Below are positions 22,396 to 38,655 of a stretch of 38,655 nucleotides of DNA, piece by piece. Source of the stretch: a virus. A model generated the notes under the pieces. It did not search any database and was not told where the DNA came from. It saw only the letters and a list, made by a program, of their open reading frames with translations. The DNA lies in the IMG/VR virus record IMGVR_UViG_3300045258_000159, positions 1-38,655 of that record; one strand, written 5' to 3'. The position numbers and the translations under genes are program-made. How positions within the stretch are numbered: the stretch's first letter is position 1; the number at the start of each line of letters is the position of its first letter.

Positions 22396-23296
22396 CGCGC
22401 AGGTCGACGCCCGCCGCTCCGGCCTCGGCGGCTCCGATGCTGCCGCCGCCTGCGGCGTCTCGCGCTGGCGCTCGCCGCTCGACGTCTACCTCGAGAAGCG
22501 CGGCGAGGCGCCCGCATTCGAGGGTAACGAGTACACGAAGTGGGGCGAGCTGCTCGAGCCCGTCATCCGGCAGAAGTATTCCGACGAGACCGGCCGGATC
22601 GTGCGCCTGCCCGAGCAGACGCTCCGACACAACGCGATCCCATTCATCCTCTGCCATCCCGACGGCGTGACCGACGACGGCCGCCTGTTCGAGGCGAAGA
22701 ACACGCGCCACGACCACGGCTGGGGCGAGCCGGGATCGGGCGAGATCCCGCAGGAATACCTCGTCCAGGTGCAGCACAACATGCTGGTGACGGGGCTCAC
22801 CGTCGCCGACGTGGCCGTGCTGGTCGCGGGCTCTGACTTCCGCATCTACGAGGTCCACGCCGACGTCGAGTTGCAGGAGCTGCTGGTCGATCGCGAGTCG
22901 GCCTTGTGGCGCCGAATCGAGCGCGCCGAGCCGCCGGCCCCGGTCAACGCGCGGGACGTGCTCGCGCTCTACGGGCGCGCCTCGCAGGACCTGCGAGTGC
23001 AGGCGTCGTTCGAGGTCGTCGGCGCGGTGGCCGCGCTCGCGGCGGCCAAGAAGGCATCCACGCTGCTCGAGCACGAGATCGAGCAGATCGAGACCGCGAT
23101 CAAGGCGCACATGGGCCACGCCGACACGCTGGTGAACGGCCGCGACGTGCTGGCGACGTGGAAGGCATCGAAGCCGGTCGCGCGCCTGGACACCGCCGCG
23201 CTCCGCAACCAGCACCCCGACATCGCCGAACAATTCACGCGCCTCGGAGAGCCGAGCCGCCGCTTCCTCCTCAAGTCGAACGGAGATTCCCGATGA
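22385..23296 (+). CDS. YqaJ-family viral exonuclease (lambda Exo-like)
   Basis: The gene encodes 303 residues from a GTG preceded by GGAGG. It contains the YqaJ/lambda-Exo motifs: RRSGLGGSDAAAACGVSRW, KWGELLEPVI with Glu54, HPDGVTDDGRLFEAKNT with Asp93, Glu103 and Lys105 (PD-(D/E)xK core), and a Gln-rich YLVQVQHNML segment. Such enzymes digest one strand from DNA ends to start single-strand annealing recombination. It is followed, with a four-base overlap, by a probable annealing protein. Confidence 0.9.
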   Translation: MLTDAQVDARRSGLGGSDAAAACGVSRWRSPLDVYLEKRGEAPAFEGNEYTKWGELLEPVIRQKYSDETGRIVRLPEQTLRHNAIPFILCHPDGVTDDGRLFEAKNTRHDHGWGEPGSGEIPQEYLVQVQHNMLVTGLTVADVAVLVAGSDFRIYEVHADVELQELLVDRESALWRRIERAEPPAPVNARDVLALYGRASQDLRVQASFEVVGAVAALAAAKKASTLLEHEIEQIETAIKAHMGHADTLVNGRDVLATWKASKPVARLDTAALRNQHPDIAEQFTRLGEPSRRFLLKSNGDSR

Positions 23297-24507
23297 GCAC
23301 GCTCTCGCCGCAGACCAGCAACCCCTTCGGCTCCGCGCCGATCGCCGCCGCGCCTCAGATGGCCTCGCAGGCCGCGCTCGTCCAGCGCGAAGTGGCCGAG
23401 GTGCAGGCCGCCATGATCATCGCCAAGCGGGAGCCGCGCGATCCGCGCCGGGCGATGGACCTGATCCTGAACAACTGCTCGCGCGAGGGGCTCGCCGAGC
23501 GGTCGATCTACCAGTACGCCCGCGGCGGCCAGGACATCACCGGCCCGTCGATCCGGCTCGCCGAGGAGCTCGCGCGCGGCTGGGGCAACATCCTGACCGG
23601 CGTCACCGAACTGTCGCGGCTCAACGGCTACTCCGAGTGCCTCGCCTATGCGTGGGACCTGGAGACCAACTTCCGCGACGAGAAGCGGTTTCAGGTCAAG
23701 CACTGGCGCGACACGAAGAAGGGCGGCTACGCCCTGACCGACGAGCGGGACATCTACGAGACCATCGCCAACTCCGGCGCGCGGCGGAAGCGGGCCTGCA
23801 TCCTCTCGGTGATCCCGATCGACGTGCAGGAGGCCGCCGTCGAGCAGTGCGAGCTGACGATGCGGACCAAGATCAACGTCACGCCGGAGAAGATCGCCTC
23901 GATGGTGGCCGCGTTCGCCGAGGTCGGCGTCACGAAGTCGCAGCTCGAGCGCCGCATTCAGCGCCGAGTCGAGACCATTACCCCGGCGCTCATGGCGAAC
24001 CTGGGCAAGGTGTTCAACTCGCTCAAGGACGGCATGTCGCAGGTCGTCGACTGGTTCGACCCCGATCCCGAGACGCCCAACGGCGCGCCCGCGCCGACCA
24101 GCCGCGCCGAGTCGGTCAAGGATCAGATCAAGCAGCAGACGGCTCCCCCCGCGCCCAAGGATGGGCAGAGCGAAGCGGCGGCGGTCGGGGAAGGGGGCGT
24201 CGTCTCCGCGCCGTCCCCGGAACCGGCCGCCGGGGACGACCGATTGCCGTTCGATGAAGGTGAGGAGGCGCCGGGGCAGGACTCGGACGGGACCGTGCTG
24301 TCGCAGCGCGTCCACGCGATCGCGGTCGAGCTCGGGATCTGGGCAGAGGGTCGCGGCGTGACGCTCTCGGGCCAGATGGCGGCCCGCCTGGGGATCGAGC
24401 CGGGCATCGCGGCGCTGACCGACATGATGGCGATCAACAAGCTCGAGCTGCTCCACGGCATTCTGCTCGAGACGAAGGCGAAGAACACGAGGCAGCCGAA
24501 GAAGTAG
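23293..24507 (+). CDS. Probable phage recombination (single-strand annealing) protein
   Basis: The protein has 404 residues from an ATG overlapping the exonuclease stop by four bases. The conserved-looking part (about residues 45-235) includes AKREPRDPRRAMDLILNNC, SIYQYARGGQDITGPSIRLA and ACILSVIPIDVQEAAVEQCE, which I recall as a widespread phage family found beside Exo genes. It lacks the usual RecT or Redbeta wording, so the annealing role is inferred from pairing with the exonuclease. Residues about 255-345 are acidic and Pro/Ala/Gly-rich, and a helical domain ends the protein. Confidence 0.65.
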   Translation: MSTLSPQTSNPFGSAPIAAAPQMASQAALVQREVAEVQAAMIIAKREPRDPRRAMDLILNNCSREGLAERSIYQYARGGQDITGPSIRLAEELARGWGNILTGVTELSRLNGYSECLAYAWDLETNFRDEKRFQVKHWRDTKKGGYALTDERDIYETIANSGARRKRACILSVIPIDVQEAAVEQCELTMRTKINVTPEKIASMVAAFAEVGVTKSQLERRIQRRVETITPALMANLGKVFNSLKDGMSQVVDWFDPDPETPNGAPAPTSRAESVKDQIKQQTAPPAPKDGQSEAAAVGEGGVVSAPSPEPAAGDDRLPFDEGEEAPGQDSDGTVLSQRVHAIAVELGIWAEGRGVTLSGQMAARLGIEPGIAALTDMMAINKLELLHGILLETKAKNTRQPKK

Positions 24508-29270: not shown

Positions 29271-29701
29271 AACGCAAACAGGTTCGGCTCTACGACGGTG
29301 GCGCCAGGCATCGCGAGCTCGTCGCGCAGTTGTACGCGCGCGGATGGTCCAGCCGCGGATGGATGGCGACCCTCCTGAGCGCCGTCCAGAACGACGAGGA
29401 GTGGAGCTGCGCGCTCGAGGACGATTCCCTGGAGGAGATCAAAGAGGCGAGGGTCGTTCCCGACGGTTGGATGTTTTACTCCGAGGTGGAGAGCGGCAAG
29501 ACCGTCCTCGCTTTCGTCGAGGTCGAGGTCACGAGCCCGGTGTCCGAGGACAAGATGGCCGCCTATGCGAACCTGTTCTGGGAGCTGGACGTCCTTGAGA
29601 TCGCGCTCGACGTCGTGGTCGTCGACTATGCGGGCGAGGCGTCGCACCTCCTGGGCCAGGCCAACATGGTCGAGCGCATGTTCGGCGGGAGCAGGGGATA
29701 G
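29267..29701 (+). CDS. Possible nuclease-like protein (PD...EVEV...K pattern)
   Basis: The frame of 144 residues starts at a GTG overlapping the upstream stop. An N-terminal helical HTH-like part (ELVAQLYARGWSSRGWMATL) precedes VVPDGWMFYSEV, TVLAFVEVEVTS and SEDKMAAYANLFWEL. The order P-D, E-x-E, K...Y is like replication-relaxation and restriction-nuclease-like proteins. The usual Lys of E-x-K is replaced, so activity is doubtful. Function is inferred weakly. It lies between two excisionase-like HTH genes. Confidence 0.5.
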   Translation: MKRKQVRLYDGGARHRELVAQLYARGWSSRGWMATLLSAVQNDEEWSCALEDDSLEEIKEARVVPDGWMFYSEVESGKTVLAFVEVEVTSPVSEDKMAAYANLFWELDVLEIALDVVVVDYAGEASHLLGQANMVERMFGGSRG

Positions 29702-29709
29702 GCGCCCAG

Positions 29710-29892
29710 GTGAAGCCCGCCACCGCGCTGCTGAGTGCCTCGGAAATCGCGGCAATCCTCAAGATCCCCGCGAAAAAGGTCTACGACCTCCTCCGCGAGG
29801 AGGGCCTGCCTTGCTACCGGATCGGCCGGCGGGTACGTTACGACCCGGGAGAGTTCGAGCGCTGGCTCTCGACCCGAAAGGGACCAGCATGA
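29710..29892 (+). CDS. Excisionase-like HTH protein beside integrase
   Basis: This 60-residue protein starts at a GTG and overlaps the integrase start by ATGA. LLSASEIAAILKIPAKKVYD, then EGLPCYRIGRRVRYDPGEFERWL is an Excise/HTH_17 winged-helix pattern. Overlap with the integrase gene makes a recombination directionality factor (Xis) likely. It could bind near the candidate attP about 1 kb downstream. A function in phage excision is inferred from context. Confidence 0.75.
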   Translation: MKPATALLSASEIAAILKIPAKKVYDLLREEGLPCYRIGRRVRYDPGEFERWLSTRKGPA

Positions 29893-30860
29893 GACGACAG
29901 CGTGGCCTCTACCGCCGCAAGGGACGCGACGGCTGGCACGCCTGGGTTCGCGTGGACGGCGAGCCCCGGCAGCGCAAGATGGGCACGACGCTCATCGAGG
30001 CGCAGGCGAACCTCAAGAAGGTGCGCGCGCAGGGGGGCGCGCCCGCGACAACGACGGTTGCCCAGGCGATCGCGGTGTGGTGCGAGACGCAGCTCTCCGT
30101 CTCGCACGGCTCCGCTCGAGGCCGGGCGATCGTTCTGGCGCGAGCGGAGAAGTACCTCGCCCGGTTCCTCGGCTTCGACCGCGTGGCCTCTCTCGGCTAC
30201 GCGCGCCTGAGCGAGTACCGGCTCTGGCTCGACACGCAGGGGCTGGCGGCGCAGACGGTGCATCACCTGATGGGAGATCTGAGGGGCCTGCTGCTGTTCC
30301 TCGTGCGCACCGGGCGACTGGATCGGACGCCGTTCGATCGAGCGCTCATGCCGCGGGTTCCGCAGCGTCTCGCACGGCCGCTCCTGCCCGAAGAGGCGCG
30401 CGCGGTGTGCGCGATCCCGGGCGAGCTCGGTTTCCAGTGCCGGCTGGGCATCGGGAGCGGGTTCCGGTTCTCCGACCTGTGCGGGCTCGATCGGACGCAC
30501 TTCGACGGCGCCGCGCTCGTCCTGGTGGCGCAGAAGACCGGGCGAGTGGTGCGGGTGCCGCTCGATCAGGAGCTCGCGGACGAGATCCGCGGCCGGATCG
30601 GGCGACTGTTCGATCGCTCACCGAACGCCCCGGGATCGTTCAACCGGAGCGTGCGGGCCGCCTCAGGAGTGGCCGGATTTCACGCACACCGGATGCGCCA
30701 CACGTTCGCGAACCGGATGCGCGCGAAGGGCGTGGACATCTACCGGATTCGCGACTTGCTCGGGCACCGGACCGTGACCACGACCGAGATCTACCTGTCG
30801 TCGGTGGCGGCATACGACCCGGAAACGGTACAGGCGGTGACCGAGGTTGTGACCGGATAG
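29889..30860 (+). CDS. int: Tyrosine-family integrase
   Basis: The gene encodes 323 residues. An Arm-type beta-rich N-terminus (GLYRRKGRDGWHAWVRVDGE) and a SAM-like core-binding domain precede the catalytic domain. Candidate catalytic residues are Arg193 (GSGFRFSDL), Lys216, His267 and Arg270 (HRMRH), His293 (LGHR) and Tyr302 (TEIYL), in the usual order. It would join phage and host DNA at an att core; a tRNA-like core begins 48 bases after its stop. A 10-bp palindrome GCGCATGCGC overlaps the last base of the gene. Confidence 0.95.
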   Translation: MRRQRGLYRRKGRDGWHAWVRVDGEPRQRKMGTTLIEAQANLKKVRAQGGAPATTTVAQAIAVWCETQLSVSHGSARGRAIVLARAEKYLARFLGFDRVASLGYARLSEYRLWLDTQGLAAQTVHHLMGDLRGLLLFLVRTGRLDRTPFDRALMPRVPQRLARPLLPEEARAVCAIPGELGFQCRLGIGSGFRFSDLCGLDRTHFDGAALVLVAQKTGRVVRVPLDQELADEIRGRIGRLFDRSPNAPGSFNRSVRAASGVAGFHAHRMRHTFANRMRAKGVDIYRIRDLLGHRTVTTTEIYLSSVAAYDPETVQAVTEVVTG

Positions 30861-32970: not shown

Positions 32971-33429
32971 TCAGGAGCGCATTGCCCACTGCAGCGCCTC
33001 GATCGAGCTCGGGAACGAGCTGTCGTCGGCCACCGCGAACTCGACGATGATCGAGGTGTCCTCGACGTCGACCATGCGGAACACGATCATGCGCCCCAGC
33101 GAATCGAGTCCCTTGGCGGCGAAGTTGCCCACGGTCGGCCCGCTCCATCCGGCGACGGGCGCGCCCTGCTCGACCTGGCCCTCGAGGCTCGAGCAGTCGA
33201 GGATCGGCTGGCTCTTGCCGTCGTAGAGCACGATCGAGCCGAGGCCCGAGTGGGGCGGCATGTCGGGCCGCGCGTTCTCGAGGTCGATGAAGACGGCGCC
33301 CTGCCCGCCCTCGGCGACGAACGACGAAAGCTTGCCGTCCAGTAGCTCGAGCGAGATCGGCCCCTGGTACTGCCGCTTGAGAGATTCGACCCTGCGCGGC
33401 AACGAGATCCTGCCGGTGGAAATGCTCAT
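32971..33429 (-). CDS. Beta-rich protein of unknown function
   Basis: The gene encodes 152 residues from an ATG with AGGGAGGG upstream. The sequence is mostly strand-forming, with PISLELLDGKLSSFVAEGG, GLGSIVLYDGKSQPILD and MIVFRMVDVEDTSIIVEFAV. There is no signal peptide or membrane segment. It follows a putative lipoprotein gene in the distal late unit. It may be structural or an accessory protein. The family is unknown. Confidence 0.65.
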   Translation of the reverse strand: MSISTGRISLPRRVESLKRQYQGPISLELLDGKLSSFVAEGGQGAVFIDLENARPDMPPHSGLGSIVLYDGKSQPILDCSSLEGQVEQGAPVAGWSGPTVGNFAAKGLDSLGRMIVFRMVDVEDTSIIVEFAVADDSSFPSSIEALQWAMRS

Positions 33430-33443
33430 TGGACCCTCCCTGG

Positions 33444-33896
33444 TTACTGAGGCCACGGACTCAGATCGAGCGCCGTGGTATCGGGTTGCGTGCCACATGG
33501 GCCCGAGACATTCGTCACCGCGGCCCCTCTCAGGTTCAGCCCGTCGTGCACCATCCAGAACGAGCCGGAGAGCACGGCACAGTTGCTCTCGTGTTTCGCG
33601 TCGGGCAGCAGCTCCCCGCGCAGCGTGTCGCCATCGGTCCCGGCGAACGCGCACGTGTAGCGGATCAGGCTCGTGACCGGCGGCAGCCCGCAGATCACGA
33701 ACCGATGCTGCGCGATCCAGACGTTGACCTTGCCCGTTTGCCACACCGCCGCGCCGGGGACGTCGCCGCCGGCGGCCGCGTAATAGCGCACCTCGGGCTC
33801 GTCCTGGACGACGATTCCGACCGAGTCCACTCCGGTCGGAGATACGCAGCCCCCGGCCGCCAGCGCGAGCAGAACCAGAGCGCTCGCAATCCTCAC
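33444..33896 (-). CDS. Predicted lipoprotein near lysis genes
   Basis: The 150-residue frame starts at a GTG overlapping the upstream stop (GTGA). Residues 1-17 form a lipoprotein signal (RIASALVLLALAAGGC) ending in a lipobox-like AGGC before Cys17. The mature part is beta-rich with several cysteines. It lies in the lysis region, so an outer-membrane role such as an o-spanin-like or exclusion function is possible. It is much longer than Rz1-type spanins, so this is uncertain. Confidence 0.65.
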   Translation of the reverse strand: MRIASALVLLALAAGGCVSPTGVDSVGIVVQDEPEVRYYAAAGGDVPGAAVWQTGKVNVWIAQHRFVICGLPPVTSLIRYTCAFAGTDGDTLRGELLPDAKHESNCAVLSGSFWMVHDGLNLRGAAVTNVSGPCGTQPDTTALDLSPWPQ

Positions 33897-34150
33897 GTGA
33901 CGAGCGGCACGCGCCACTCGGGCGCGCGACAGAGACATCGCTCGTACTCGGTGAACGTGGCCGAGCGGACGTAGAGCCTCTGCTCGAGCCCGTTATTGCG
34001 GTCCTCGACGAGCAGCAGGTCGGGACAGGCCAGCACGCGCCTCAGGAGCAGGATCAGCCCATCCGCGGAGCCCTCGGCGAGCTCGACGAGCTGCTCGTAC
34101 TTCGAGACCGGCAGCTTGATCACGCGCACGCCCATCTTCGGCAGTGGCAT
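33893..34150 (-). CDS. Small protein of unknown function
   Basis: The gene gives 85 residues from an ATG sharing one base with the previous stop (TGATG). It has a basic start (PLPKMGVRVIKLPVSKYEQL), helices with GLILLLRRVLACPDLLLVED, and a final part with several Arg and Cys residues. It has one moderate hydrophobic segment. It lies between lysis-region genes. Function is unknown. Confidence 0.6.
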   Translation of the reverse strand: MPLPKMGVRVIKLPVSKYEQLVELAEGSADGLILLLRRVLACPDLLLVEDRNNGLEQRLYVRSATFTEYERCLCRAPEWRVPLVT

Positions 34151-34410
34151 CAGGCGCTTGCGACCGATCCCGAGTTGGGCGGCCCCCAGCCATGGCCCGA
34201 GAACAGCCCGACGAACTGCGTCAGGACCGCGTACAGCGACTCGGGAGAGAACTTCCCATTCGTGATCTCCATCACCCGCGCGACGAGTGCGTCGATCTGA
34301 TCCGACGCCTGCGGCACCGTCTCGCGGATCTTGCCGAGTTCCGCCAGTAGGATCTTGAGGCCGTCGCCGAAATCCCCGCCCACCACGATCAACAGTTCGA
34401 GCAGCGTCAT
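34150..34410 (-). CDS. Small protein with a hydrophobic N-terminus
   Basis: The frame encodes 86 residues from an ATG with GGGAGGA upstream. The first 14 residues (TLLELLIVVGGDFG) are hydrophobic, followed by helices (LKILLAELGKIRETVPQASDQIDALVARVMEI) and a Gly/Pro-rich end. It might be a small membrane-associated protein. Located among lysis-region genes, a holin-related role is conceivable but not shown. Confidence 0.6.
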   Translation of the reverse strand: MTLLELLIVVGGDFGDGLKILLAELGKIRETVPQASDQIDALVARVMEITNGKFSPESLYAVLTQFVGLFSGHGWGPPNSGSVASA

Positions 34411-34422
34411 GACATTCCTCCC

Positions 34423-35271
34423 TTATTGGGGCGGGCTGGGCGTCCACCCGAGCTGCAGGCGCGCCACGATCGAGTTGCGGTACGGGTTCTTGAGGTCGAC
34501 GACGGGGATCAGGCCGATGTACCAGGCGGTCTTGCCGCTCGGGTTCCGCGCCACGCGCCACGAGATCGGCAGCGCGAAGTCGACCGAGGACCTGTGCCCG
34601 ATGATCCGGTCGACATGGTCGCCGAAATACTGCACCGCGCGCACGCGGGCGAAGAGTTGAATCCCGCCGCCCTGTCCATCCGTCGACAGCGCCCACGAGA
34701 CGCCCTCGCCGACCGAGCCGACCTTGGAGCCCACGCCCCAGTCCGAGCCGATCACGAGCGCGATTGCGGGGCCCGTGGAGTAGGCGAACTGGCCGCCGAT
34801 CTCGCCGTCGTAGTCGAGCGGCTTGCCCGGGTAGTTCACGAGGTAGGCCGCGTCGGAGCCAAGCGCCCGCACGCCCCCCGAGATCCCGAAGTTCGCCCGG
34901 TGCATGTCGAGCGGGGGATAGTTCATCTGCGCCGAGGCCGGCATCGGGATCAGCAGGACGGCCAGCGCGAGGCCGAGCATCCACATCGCCACGGTCTTGT
35001 TCGCCACCGAGTTGTCCGCAGCGTCGACTTTCGTCGAGACGTCCGCGGCCTTCGCAGGCTGGAACGGACGCTGCCAGCCGAGCTTCGCCAGCACGACCGG
35101 AGCCGCGATGGTGAGCATGGCCGCAGGGCTGATGATCCCGGCGCCGGTGTCGACGCTGACGGGCCACCCCTGCCACTTCGCCACGCCGAGCCAGATCAGG
35201 GAGAGCGCGACGGCCCAGCCCTCGATGGTGTTGAAGATGTCCTTGAGCTTCTGGAACAGGCTCTGATCCAC
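34423..35271 (-). CDS. Membrane protein with internal signal-like segment and beta-rich C-terminus
   Basis: The GTG start at 35271 has GGGAGGAG upstream and gives 282 residues. Hydrophobic helices occur at about 19-32 and 46-64, then a polar linker with VSTKVDAADNSV. A third segment at about 93-115 (AMWMLGLALAVLLIPMPASA) looks like a Sec signal peptide followed by a Gly/aromatic, beta-rich part (HRANFGISGGVRALG, GEIGGQFAYSTGPAIALVIG) that resembles an outer-membrane or surface domain. It may be a fusion of a holin-like part and an exported domain. A second internal start near the signal-like segment is possible. Confidence 0.65.
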   Translation of the reverse strand: MDQSLFQKLKDIFNTIEGWAVALSLIWLGVAKWQGWPVSVDTGAGIISPAAMLTIAAPVVLAKLGWQRPFQPAKAADVSTKVDAADNSVANKTVAMWMLGLALAVLLIPMPASAQMNYPPLDMHRANFGISGGVRALGSDAAYLVNYPGKPLDYDGEIGGQFAYSTGPAIALVIGSDWGVGSKVGSVGEGVSWALSTDGQGGGIQLFARVRAVQYFGDHVDRIIGHRSSVDFALPISWRVARNPSGKTAWYIGLIPVVDLKNPYRNSIVARLQLGWTPSPPQ

Positions 35272-35293
35272 GTTCTCCTCCCTTCGCCGGCCG

Positions 35294-35632
35294 CTATTGG
35301 CCGAGCAGTTTTGCGACGATTTCCTTGCCGCCCAGCGCCAGTAGCGCGATCGCGATCGAGCCCGCGGCAATCCGAACGAGCCAGAGATCGGCGCCGCTCA
35401 GCTTCCGCGCGACCCCCTGAAGCTCCGACTTCTGTAGGCTGAGCGCCGTGTCGCGCATCGCCGTCGCCGAGGTGCGCAGTTCCGCGAGCGCGATCTTCAC
35501 GTCGCCGCGCGCGTCGGAATCGCCGATCCGCATCGAGGTCAGCACCTCGCTGACCCTTCCCGAGGCAAGTTCGAGCCTTGCGATTGCTTCTTCGAGGTCA
35601 TCGAGACGTCCTCGCAGTTCGTGATCTTCCAT
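35294..35632 (-). CDS. Coiled-coil protein with C-terminal membrane segment (possible holin)
   Basis: The ATG at 35632 gives 112 residues; an upstream ATG at 35674 would add 14 Gly/Arg-rich residues with no ribosome site. HELRGRLDDLEEAIARLELA and VKIALAELRTSATAMRDT are coiled coils, followed by a hydrophobic segment at about 84-101 (LWLVRIAAGSIAIALLAL). It lies directly after the lysozyme-like gene, so it may be a holin or other lysis-associated membrane protein. Only one membrane segment is evident, so the class is unsettled. Confidence 0.6.
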   Translation of the reverse strand: MEDHELRGRLDDLEEAIARLELASGRVSEVLTSMRIGDSDARGDVKIALAELRTSATAMRDTALSLQKSELQGVARKLSGADLWLVRIAAGSIAIALLALGGKEIVAKLLGQ

Positions 35633-35695
35633 TCGGCCGGCACCGCCCCCCCGGTCGTGTGTCGCCCCTGCCATGCGCGGGCACGACCGCGCCGT

Positions 35696-36211
35696 CTACG
35701 CCGTGAAGTCCGACAGCAGCCCGGCCATCCGGTTCATCCATCCGAACGCCCACTTCGCCTGCGTCGCATCGTTCGTCACCAGCCGGCCGTAGAGCCGCAG
35801 CCGCTCGCCGAACATCGAGAGCCAGAGCTTCGCGGGCGCGGCTGCTTCGATCGCGGTCAGGGTCCGGGGCCCGAACACTCCGTCCACGTCGAGCCCGCCG
35901 AGTGCGCGCTGGATCATCCGCACCGCCTGGCTGATCCCATGCTGGACCCCGGAATCGACCACGAGCGCCCGCAGGCGGTCATCTGAGATCTTGGAGAACC
36001 CCGGCACCTCGACGTAGAGGTAGCGGTAGATTTGGAGCGCCTCGGTCGCCGACAGGTGCTCCACGTCGGCTGCCGAGACGTCCTTCTTCCTCCACGCCGC
36101 GAGCGTCCCCTGCGTCACCCCGAACTTCGTCGGCCCGCCATGATCGTCCGGATCGTTGACGTACCCGCCCTCGCGCGAGATCAGGTCGGCGAGCATGTCG
36201 GCCTCGGTCAC
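35696..36211 (-). CDS. Endolysin: GH108-type lysozyme with PG-binding domain
   Basis: The gene encodes 171 residues from a GTG overlapping the previous stop. It contains LISREGGYVNDPDDHGGPTK, the GH108 signature with candidate catalytic Glu14, and later VVDSGVQHGISQAVRMIQRAL and GVFGPRTLTAIE, the usual C-terminal PG_binding_3 part. It cuts peptidoglycan during lysis. No signal peptide is seen, so release would depend on a holin. It follows the large secreted protein gene and precedes membrane-protein genes. Confidence 0.9.
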   Translation of the reverse strand: MTEADMLADLISREGGYVNDPDDHGGPTKFGVTQGTLAAWRKKDVSAADVEHLSATEALQIYRYLYVEVPGFSKISDDRLRALVVDSGVQHGISQAVRMIQRALGGLDVDGVFGPRTLTAIEAAAPAKLWLSMFGERLRLYGRLVTNDATQAKWAFGWMNRMAGLLSDFTA

Positions 36212-38271
36212 CGGATGTCCCGCTCGGTGATCTGGTCGGCGTATACCCACTGGATCGGCCCGGAGTTGAAGTAGCGCACCGTCGAAGTGTTCGCCTGCAT
36301 CGCGCACCACTTCGCCGCTTCCATGACGCCGTTGATCATCCGCGTCATTTCCCACGCCGGCCGCGGGCCCGAGTACGGCCCGTTCGCCGTCACGCCGATC
36401 CCCGCGCGCCAGTTCGGGATGTGCGTGACCCAGATCACGCCCTTGGCGATCCCGCGGTGGGCCAGCGCACTCGTGTTCGCCGCTTCCGACGCCGTCGAGA
36501 TGTCGATCTGCCGCTCGAAGCCCATCGCAGCGCCGAGCAGCGAGTTCATGCCGTAGCGCATGGGGATGTAGACGTCGGCCGAGACCGTGTCGAGCGTGCC
36601 GCCCCAGAGGTACTTGGACGGCACGTAGAGCAAGTCGCGGTAGCTCACGCTGACGGGGGAGATCAGCGAGGCCCCGATCGTGTTGATGTTCGGCAGGAAG
36701 TAGTCGACGCCCCGGCCGATGCCGCCGATCATCACGCTGTTCGGCTCCTGCGCGTTCGCGTTCGGCGCCTCATACTGGGTCCGCACGACGCGGTAGCCGT
36801 GCCCGTAACTCGCCCCCGCGAGCGCGATGGCGTAGGAGATCGAGTCGAAGTTCGAGAGGAAAAACCCGCCCGGCCCCGCGAGCTGCGACGAGTAGTCGTC
36901 GCCCGGAGGCATCACGTGACGCGAGACCAGCAAGGGGTCGCCGACGGCGGTGATCAGCTTTCGGGTCGCCCCCGTGAGCAGCGAGTACGTCGAGTGATCC
37001 CGCTGCGTCGACGTAGTACCGAAGGCCCATGCCAGGCGGTCCTTGCCAAAGATGTCGTTGTAGACGCCGCCCGAAGCCGACGTGAGCGATGAGTCCGAGA
37101 CCGACCCACCGGCTGACGTCCCGGCATGGTTGTGGACCGTGAAGCGCCCCATCTTGTAGCGCCGCGCGGCTGCGAACTCGTTGGCGAAGCGCGTCGAGCC
37201 GTTCTCGGCCGTCGCCATCGAGTCGGTCTCTTCGCCGAGCGTGTAGGGGATCTTCCACACACCGAGCGAGTCGAACCCGGCGAAGGCGTCGGCCACCTGC
37301 GGGTAGCTGCACTGGACGCAGGCCACGCCCGGCACCACGAAGCGCTTGGAGCCGTCGTCGATGTCGAGCGCGACATGCTGGGCCGGGAACTGGAAGATCG
37401 ACGGCGCGAGGCGCGCGGCCATGCCCATCGCGACCACCGAGAGCTGCGACGACTTGAAGTTCGCCGAGCCGACGTTCGACGCCTTGCTCTCCCAGTTGAT
37501 CACGCCATAGCCGTTGGCGTTCGCGGTCCCCGCGCGCGTCGAGACGATGGGCGGGTTGTAGAACCACGCGCAGACGGTGTCGGATGCGGTGGCAGACGTG
37601 CCGCCCACGCCGTCGGGATCGGCCTTCGTGTAGTTGTAGAACGCGAGCCACAGAACCGGCGTGATGTAGTTGCCCGCGAGACTGCCGCTCGAAGTCGGTA
37701 GGCGCTGCGAGAAGTAGGTATTGACCGGGAATGCGAATCCCGCCGGGCTCGTGGCGAACGGGCTGGACCCGGTGAGCGACACATTGACGTGGCCCGAGTT
37801 GACGCCGAGCGAGTCGTCGCCGGCGCCGGCCGCGAGATCCGACCCCTCGGAGATGTAGAGCACCGGCACGCGCGGCCGGTTCGCGGCCTGCGAAAGCTGG
37901 ACGGCAAATCGCCTACCCGGGCCGGTTCCTCCGCTGGCGTTCGTGCACATGACGACGATCAGATCGTAATCGAAGCGCGGGGACGCGCCCGTGGGCGCGA
38001 TGCTGTCCTTGAGCTCCGAGAGCGTATAGCTGCACGTCAGGAAATGCGCGCCCTTGCCGAAGGCGTTGGTCGCATCCTCCCAGCAACTCTGGTTCGCGAT
38101 CGTGATCTTGTTCCCGGACTTGATCGAGCGCGACAGGAGGTCGAAGAAGCCGGTGTAGTTGTCCTTGCTGTCCGTGTAGAGCGAGTCGACGAGGACGAGC
38201 ACGCCGCCCGCATGAGCGGACGAGCTGAACAGCGAGAGCGCGAGGGCGAAACCGAGCGCGAGCCGCTTCAC
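36208..38271 (-). CDS. Large secreted protein with polysaccharide-deacetylase-like motifs
   Basis: The GTG start overlaps the previous stop and gives 687 residues. Residues 1-22 form a Sec signal peptide (KRLALGFALALSLFSSSAHA). The mature protein is Gly/Ser/Ala-rich. Three or four spaced motifs resemble CE4 (NodB) polysaccharide deacetylases: ALDIDDG at 301-307 with Asp303/305/306, TVHNHAG at 378-384 with His380/His382, MPPGDD at 454-459 and VIWVTH at 612-617. The motif distances are larger than usual, so the match is tentative. It could modify or bind surface polysaccharide as an exported adhesion or processing protein. Confidence 0.7.
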   Translation of the reverse strand: MKRLALGFALALSLFSSSAHAGGVLVLVDSLYTDSKDNYTGFFDLLSRSIKSGNKITIANQSCWEDATNAFGKGAHFLTCSYTLSELKDSIAPTGASPRFDYDLIVVMCTNASGGTGPGRRFAVQLSQAANRPRVPVLYISEGSDLAAGAGDDSLGVNSGHVNVSLTGSSPFATSPAGFAFPVNTYFSQRLPTSSGSLAGNYITPVLWLAFYNYTKADPDGVGGTSATASDTVCAWFYNPPIVSTRAGTANANGYGVINWESKASNVGSANFKSSQLSVVAMGMAARLAPSIFQFPAQHVALDIDDGSKRFVVPGVACVQCSYPQVADAFAGFDSLGVWKIPYTLGEETDSMATAENGSTRFANEFAAARRYKMGRFTVHNHAGTSAGGSVSDSSLTSASGGVYNDIFGKDRLAWAFGTTSTQRDHSTYSLLTGATRKLITAVGDPLLVSRHVMPPGDDYSSQLAGPGGFFLSNFDSISYAIALAGASYGHGYRVVRTQYEAPNANAQEPNSVMIGGIGRGVDYFLPNINTIGASLISPVSVSYRDLLYVPSKYLWGGTLDTVSADVYIPMRYGMNSLLGAAMGFERQIDISTASEAANTSALAHRGIAKGVIWVTHIPNWRAGIGVTANGPYSGPRPAWEMTRMINGVMEAAKWCAMQANTSTVRYFNSGPIQWVYADQITERDIR

Positions 38272-38655
38272 CAGGGGATCCCGAGCAGCCAGACGTCGTA
38301 GATCATCTGGGCGCCGGTGAAGTTCGATAGGTAGAGCGAGGTAAACTGCGCCTGATAGGGCGCGTTCGTCAGCGAATCCGTGAGCGGGATCATCTTCCAC
38401 CGATCCAGCAGGCTAGTGAGCCGAACCGTCTTAACAGAACGCGCGCCCGTGCCGAGCGGGAACCACCAGCCGAGCGCGGTCGAGTCCGCCGTCGCCGACG
38501 AGTTCGCGCGCACGGCCAGCTCGAGGTAGCCCCCAGCCGAGAACGAGGCCGCCTTGATCCGGACCAGCGCGAACATCTGTCGGTAGGCGCTCGACTGGAA
38601 CGGGATCGCCGACGAGTCGTTCGCGGCCGAGGCCAGCGTGACGTTCGAGCGGTGG
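38268..38655 (-). CDS. Secreted tail-region protein, C-terminal part (continues from base 1)
   Basis: This open frame enters from base 38655 and ends with a TGA at 38268-38270. The same protein starts at base 230 across the junction. The visible residues include SNVTLASAANDSSAIPFQ, then FALVRIKAASFSAGGYLELA and SLYLSNFTGAQMIYDVWLLG, a beta-rich pattern like the capsid-adjacent secreted protein. The stop overlaps the start of the next gene by four bases. Function is unknown; see the N-terminal part at bases 1-230. Confidence 0.75.
   Translation of the reverse strand, partial: HRSNVTLASAANDSSAIPFQSSAYRQMFALVRIKAASFSAGGYLELAVRANSSATADSTALGWWFPLGTGARSVKTVRLTSLLDRWKMIPLTDSLTNAPYQAQFTSLYLSNFTGAQMIYDVWLLGIPW

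Follow-up and report, generated by a model that had tools for sequence, protein, structure and literature searches.

A 687-residue protein with a predicted Sec signal peptide and no detected relatives, encoded beside the endolysin of a probably temperate tailed phage

Phage lysis cassettes encode exported proteins beside the endolysin, such as spanins and signal-peptide endolysins. Sugar-deacetylating proteins are also phage-encoded, and the tailspike O-antigen deacetylases G7C gp63.1 and PP99 gp55 are examples from the tail region (PMC6989608). Among cellular enzymes, the CE4/NodB deacetylases (PF01522) follow a set of motifs in which MT1 holds a tandem Asp (LTFDDG), MT3 reads RPPYG with an Arg, MT4 supplies an Asp (DW) and MT5 reads LMH. 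The NodB fold is a (beta/alpha)7 barrel carrying an Asp-His-His metal site. The two metal-binding His of MT2 are spaced as HTxxH, or as H(T/S)xxxH in some NodB2 proteins, while NodB2 and CE18 take the Arg from elsewhere and miss MT4 as well, and members of the NodB1.2 subclass can have motifs that are hardly recognisable (PMC10967932). The CE18/Agd3-type exopolysaccharide deacetylases (PF25115, PDB 6NWZ) are secreted proteins of roughly 700-800 aa, in which an N-terminal alpha/beta/alpha domain is followed by a NodB-like CE domain beginning near a DD pair, and their motif CM2 is by published definition HxxxH (PMC7229062). Here we describe a 687-residue phage protein (P0001) for which a sequence-only reading had proposed Sec export and CE4 deacetylase motifs.

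The phage and its late cassette

The window analysed is the whole of the virus record IMGVR_UViG_3300045258_000159, 38,655 nt in length. Its two ends abut directly: read across the junction from base 1 to base 38655, the minus strand gave an intact 205-aa frame (230 to 38268), which a simple gene caller recovered on the rotated sequence; end repeats of direct or inverted type were not found. Because of this intact frame, the contig most plausibly represents a phage genome that is circular or else circularly permuted, and its structural genes together with an integrase (Table 1) indicate a tailed, probably temperate one. It appears distant from sequenced phages: the terminase had three matches only among them (23-26% identity), the best-covered phage matches of the portal, which span most of the protein, were at about 23% identity, a peptide-pattern search of viral contigs gave no portal relatives, and near relatives sought through portal and endolysin were not found. 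As a separate observation, the middle of a 533-aa frame (about residues 118-421) matches phrog_3657 (1.8e-92) as well as genes that very different phages carry, annotated as exonuclease or hypothetical, at up to 56% identity, far closer than the matches of any structural gene tested.

Table 1. Positions of the features discussed, in window coordinates
Feature	Position	Strand	Basis or remark
P0001, 687-aa orphan, predicted Sec export	36208-38271	minus	GTG start, TGA stop, open frame, signal peptide, codon usage
Predicted signal peptide of P0001, VKRLALGFALALSLFSSSAHA	38209-38271	minus	sequence and rule-based scans; cleavage expected after A21
ALDIDDG, residues 301-307	37351-37371	minus	MT1-like
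TVHNHAG, residues 378-384	37120-37140	minus	MT2-like position, but HxH
MPPGDD, residues 454-459	36895-36912	minus	MT3-like, no Arg
VTH, residues 615-617	36421-36429	minus	MT5-like, after strand-like stretch GVIW
205-aa signal-peptide protein (MKWSRAGLAVAVLVSLALASFASADVNYG...), C-terminal part	38268-38655	minus	upstream neighbour of P0001
Same 205-aa protein, N-terminal part with signal peptide	1-230	minus	open reading frame crosses window ends
112-aa baseplate-upper-protein-like gene (by eye)	241-579	minus	phrog_1084 3.7e-5; phrog_6183 minor tail 0.0095
GH108 endolysin	35696-36211	minus	PF05838 7.5e-22, PF09374, phrog_315; downstream neighbour of P0001
Signal-peptide protein, beta-barrel-like	35007-34423	minus	
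Lipoprotein-type N-terminus	33917-33444	minus	LLALAAGGC
Integrase	29565-30860	plus	
533-aa frame	22906-24507	plus	phrog_3657
184-aa signal-peptide protein	19726-19172	minus	
Terminase	18394-16979	minus	
Portal with head-morphogenesis domain	17063-14802	minus	
Protease	14729-13842	minus	
Major capsid	13822-12245	minus	
197-aa signal-peptide protein	12170-11577	minus	VKNLRRLCSLALVAIVAAMVIPQFAQA
Head-tail adaptor	11343-10744	minus	
Minor tail protein	9656-8646	minus	
Tape measure	7946-5559	minus	

P0001 is a real gene. The open reading frame reported earlier exists, but on the minus strand, which the sequence-only reading had left unsaid: coding runs from 38271 to 36211 with the stop at 36210-36208, and the plus-strand frame at the same coordinates has three internal stops. 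GC content by codon position is 0.56/0.52/0.92 (GC3 0.92), and its codon frequencies correlate at 0.84 with those of four structural genes, compared with at most 0.69 for the other five frames.

The gene stands third in a row formed by the baseplate-like gene, the 205-aa signal-peptide gene, P0001 and the GH108 endolysin gene, in agreement with its earlier placement between a secreted-type gene and the endolysin, and it is transcribed in the same direction as the late genes. The stop of the 205-aa gene overlaps the P0001 start in a GTGA (TGGTGAAG). On the other side, the endolysin starts either at GTG 36211, in a GTGA overlap with the P0001 stop, or at ATG 36196, which lies 15 bases beyond the GTG, is preceded by GAGG and would leave an 11-base gap. 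The region 33400-38655 yielded no promoter-like site; its terminator-like sites number three (shuffle mean 1.6), and two of these are nested inside P0001. From the overlaps with its neighbours and the lack of a promoter-like site, we infer that P0001 belongs to a packed late cassette and is expected to be made together with the endolysin. The 205-aa neighbour matched no family convincingly, and no relative of it was found in phages; it carries a YGWSGSDWLPVLVDGSGNV stretch reading like a tail protein.

Predicted export and the other signal-peptide genes

The N-terminus of P0001 runs V/M-KR-LALGFALALSLF-SSSAHA and then GG, so that residues 1-21 present a basic n-region, a hydrophobic core and an AHA cleavage site of the AxA type. 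The Sec signal peptide claimed in the sequence-only reading was thus confirmed both by eye and in a rule-based scan for n-, h- and c-regions with an AxA site. DEKR residues account for 14.6% of P0001, versus about 20-28% in the portal, capsid, tape measure, terminase, endolysin and a 1179-aa protein of the phage, and there are seven cysteines; the signal peptide, the low charge and the cysteines together fit an exported protein. That P0001 is an exported late protein encoded beside the endolysin is well supported at the level of sequence, while export, which is predicted by rule and by eye only, its timing and its site of action are inferred.

An exported protein at this position had been called unexpected, a judgement weakened by the presence of several other signal-peptide genes in the same phage, five further genes, the 205-aa neighbour among them, beginning with signal-peptide or lipoprotein N-termini. 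Directly after the major capsid gene, a 197-aa protein with a full Sec-type signal peptide and no PHROGs or phage match occupies the usual decoration-protein position, where a signal peptide is unexplained. A 184-aa signal-peptide protein is encoded just upstream of the terminase gene. Another gene encodes a signal peptide followed by sequence reading like a small outer-membrane beta-barrel, possibly a superinfection-exclusion or conversion gene, and a lipoprotein-type N-terminus (lipobox LAAGGC) is encoded downstream of the lysis cassette. The signal rule was passed by 6 of 38 called frames in the window, versus 26 of 717 in 67 other viral loci and 13 of 212 in the viral loci above 60% GC, rates that are a hint and not a measurement, as the crude frame caller missed two named signal genes and included doubtful frames.

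P0001 might instead be a virion protein, receptor-binding or at the tail tip, with a hydrophobic N-terminus that serves assembly or goes unused for export. The slot after a baseplate-like gene and before the endolysin often holds such genes in siphophages, the protein is charge-poor and rich in Ser/Thr/Gly/Asn (32.8%) as tail adhesins often are, and the 197-aa gene shows another signal peptide in a structural slot. However, the N-terminus is more than a hydrophobic patch, having all three parts of a signal peptide, and in a survey of phage DGR target proteins signal peptides were not detectable (PMC6199706). We consider a virion role unlikely, though worth keeping in view.

Motif words, family profiles and the search for relatives

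All four motif words named in the sequence-only reading are present in the order given, and the numbering of D303/D305/D306 and H380/H382 is correct. Their description as CE4 motifs holds in part. ALDIDDG has the tandem Asp of MT1, and VTH could be MT5; by contrast, HNHAG (residues 380-384) departs from the MT2 spacing, as it does from the HxxxH of CE18 CM2, MPPGDD lacks the Arg of MT3, and no MT4 word could be assigned. A strict pattern fitted to the observed spacing turned up once among 20,000 shuffles and never among 466 comparison frames (other long open frames from fetched loci); for a looser pattern of CE4 type the corresponding counts were 89 and 6. As both patterns were written after seeing the P0001 sequence, these chance rates are optimistic.

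Family tests gave the deacetylase assignment no support. Comparison of P0001 with Pfam, NCBIfam and PHROGs (hmmscan) and with PDB (phmmer) returned no meaningful match, including none to PF01522 or PF25115, and no profile, PDB or tblastn result supported a deacetylase family. Against a CE4 profile (this and a CE18 profile were built from fetched CE4 and bacterial CE18 proteins), P0001 scored -1.2 bits with filters off (E 0.6), below its own reversed sequence at 0.4 bits (E 0.2), whereas five single CE18 (Agd3-type) proteins used as a positive control scored 4.4 to 11.6 bits (E 0.012 to 7e-5). The test therefore sees NodB relatives as distant as CE18 but does not see P0001. Against CE18, hhalign gave P0001 a score of 20.2, where 15 shuffles scored between 15 and 30, and local profile alignment with 14 bacterial CE18 proteins gave z below 1. 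DUF2194 (PF09960) yielded no member for comparison. In one bacterial genome at least six CE18 (Agd3-like) genes form a tandem run (G024:C6:10-10728; L020, L024, L030, L033, L034, L035).

These results bear differently on the candidate families. An ordinary CE4 polysaccharide deacetylase, for which ALDIDDG, MPPG and VTH in CE4 order would speak, is contradicted by the profile score, the off-consensus MT2 and MT3 and the lack of an assigned MT4, and we regard it as hardly credible. An Agd3-like CE18 enzyme would match in size and in the succession of signal peptide, alpha/beta domain and CE-type motifs (PMC7229062), but with shuffle-level scores, on which profile membership was rejected, and HxH in place of HxxxH this too is very unlikely. 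For a NodB-like reading in general, the profile tests lower the probability and do not remove it, because structural relatives can lie beyond sequence detection.

The search for distant homologues proposed with the deacetylase reading came back empty across viral, phage, plasmid and genome collections. Viral contigs scanned with whole P0001 and three sub-stretches contained no relative, nor did genome contigs, and six-frame searches of about 830 bacterial genomes of three phyla and 50 viral records, like tblastn against phages and plasmids with the whole protein (E<=1) and residues 296-687 (E<=10), also found none. The DIDDG...HNH pattern occurred in viral contigs at three loci, all unrelated to P0001; among the matches listed for LDIDDG were unrelated loci, many of them tail-like, none of which matched P0001 by tblastn. 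Four six-frame matches near E 1e-3 were rejected as chance, three because they span TAG stops and the fourth (L014) as a 173-aa low-complexity frame without VTH. P0001 thus appears to be an orphan in the collections searched. With no homologue there was no alignment for structure prediction, and AlphaFold2 run without relatives gave unusable models for the whole protein and for residues 296-687 (mean pLDDT 29.9 and 29.4).

Considering that profiles give no support for an enzyme and that the motif patterns were picked after the fact, the motifs may be coincidental and P0001 a protein without enzymatic activity, exported to the envelope or surface of the lysogen or infected cell and acting in superinfection exclusion or adhesion; genes nearby encode a second exported protein, a probable outer-membrane barrel and a lipoprotein. 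Tight packing in the late cassette with no promoter-like site of its own is unlike a typical stand-alone conversion gene, however, and shuffles and other frames seldom show the motif order, so that we judge this reading improbable, to about the same degree as a virion role.

A tentative role and its relation to known systems

The reading we put forward, tentatively and as somewhat short of an even chance, is that P0001 is a late Sec-exported protein of a temperate tailed phage that acts on the envelope or on glycans of the cell surface around lysis. It would be produced, like the endolysin and a second signal-peptide protein, from one tight cassette, pass through Sec to the periplasm or beyond in a diderm host, and act there as the cell is lysed. 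A role at the envelope is favoured by the signal peptide, the low charge, the cysteines, the gene overlaps and the adjoining GH108 endolysin. The N-terminal part reads like an alpha/beta domain and is followed by a region with D-x-D-D, H-x-H, P-P-G and T-H behind strand-like stretches, a layout that would be compatible with a metal-dependent hydrolase distantly related to NodB.

The enzymatic part of this reading is favoured by motif words in CE4-like order that are rarer in shuffles and other frames, and disfavoured by the lack of profile, PDB or tblastn support despite a working positive control, by HxH, by the missing Arg and by the lack of an assigned MT4. We think a NodB-like fold of any kind possible but lean against it; deacetylase activity, less likely still, is a guess, and catalysis and substrate are speculative. 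A wall that has lost N-acetyl groups is normally better protected from muramidases such as GH108, so peptidoglycan would be an odd substrate beside this endolysin and a surface polymer the likelier one. Stripping of acetyl groups from such a polymer might let virions leave the cell or keep them from rebinding debris. A more elaborate and very improbable version would have the structural-slot proteins (after the capsid and at the tail end) exported alongside a divergent, NodB-like enzyme that founds a new family, the virions collecting them in the periplasm at lysis or emerging onto a receptor-stripped surface.

Set against described systems, P0001 resembles CE4/NodB deacetylases in the order of its DDG, PP and H words, and differs in its HxH, its PP motif without Arg, its unassigned MT4 and its shuffle-level CE4 score. 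Its likeness to CE18 lies in layout and spacing judged by eye only; it has no sequence-profile similarity, and CE18 members are found largely in exopolysaccharide gene clusters whereas P0001 sits in a phage late cassette. Compared with the exported proteins of lysis cassettes, it is much larger and soluble-looking; it has no lipobox, and apart from the signal peptide no membrane anchor was noticed. The open-access literature searched held no precedent for a phage NodB-type deacetylase of this layout or for an exported one in a lysis cassette. Should P0001 prove not to be a deacetylase, the late cassette would still encode a large exported orphan. With several signal-peptide genes present, the question arises why so small a phage exports so much. 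The tailspike deacetylases, to which it is likened by description, are virion parts that act from outside at adsorption, while for P0001 export is predicted; if it is an exported lysis-phase glycan deacetylase, it would mirror those outside-acting tailspikes, as a phage enzyme modifying the host surface from within.
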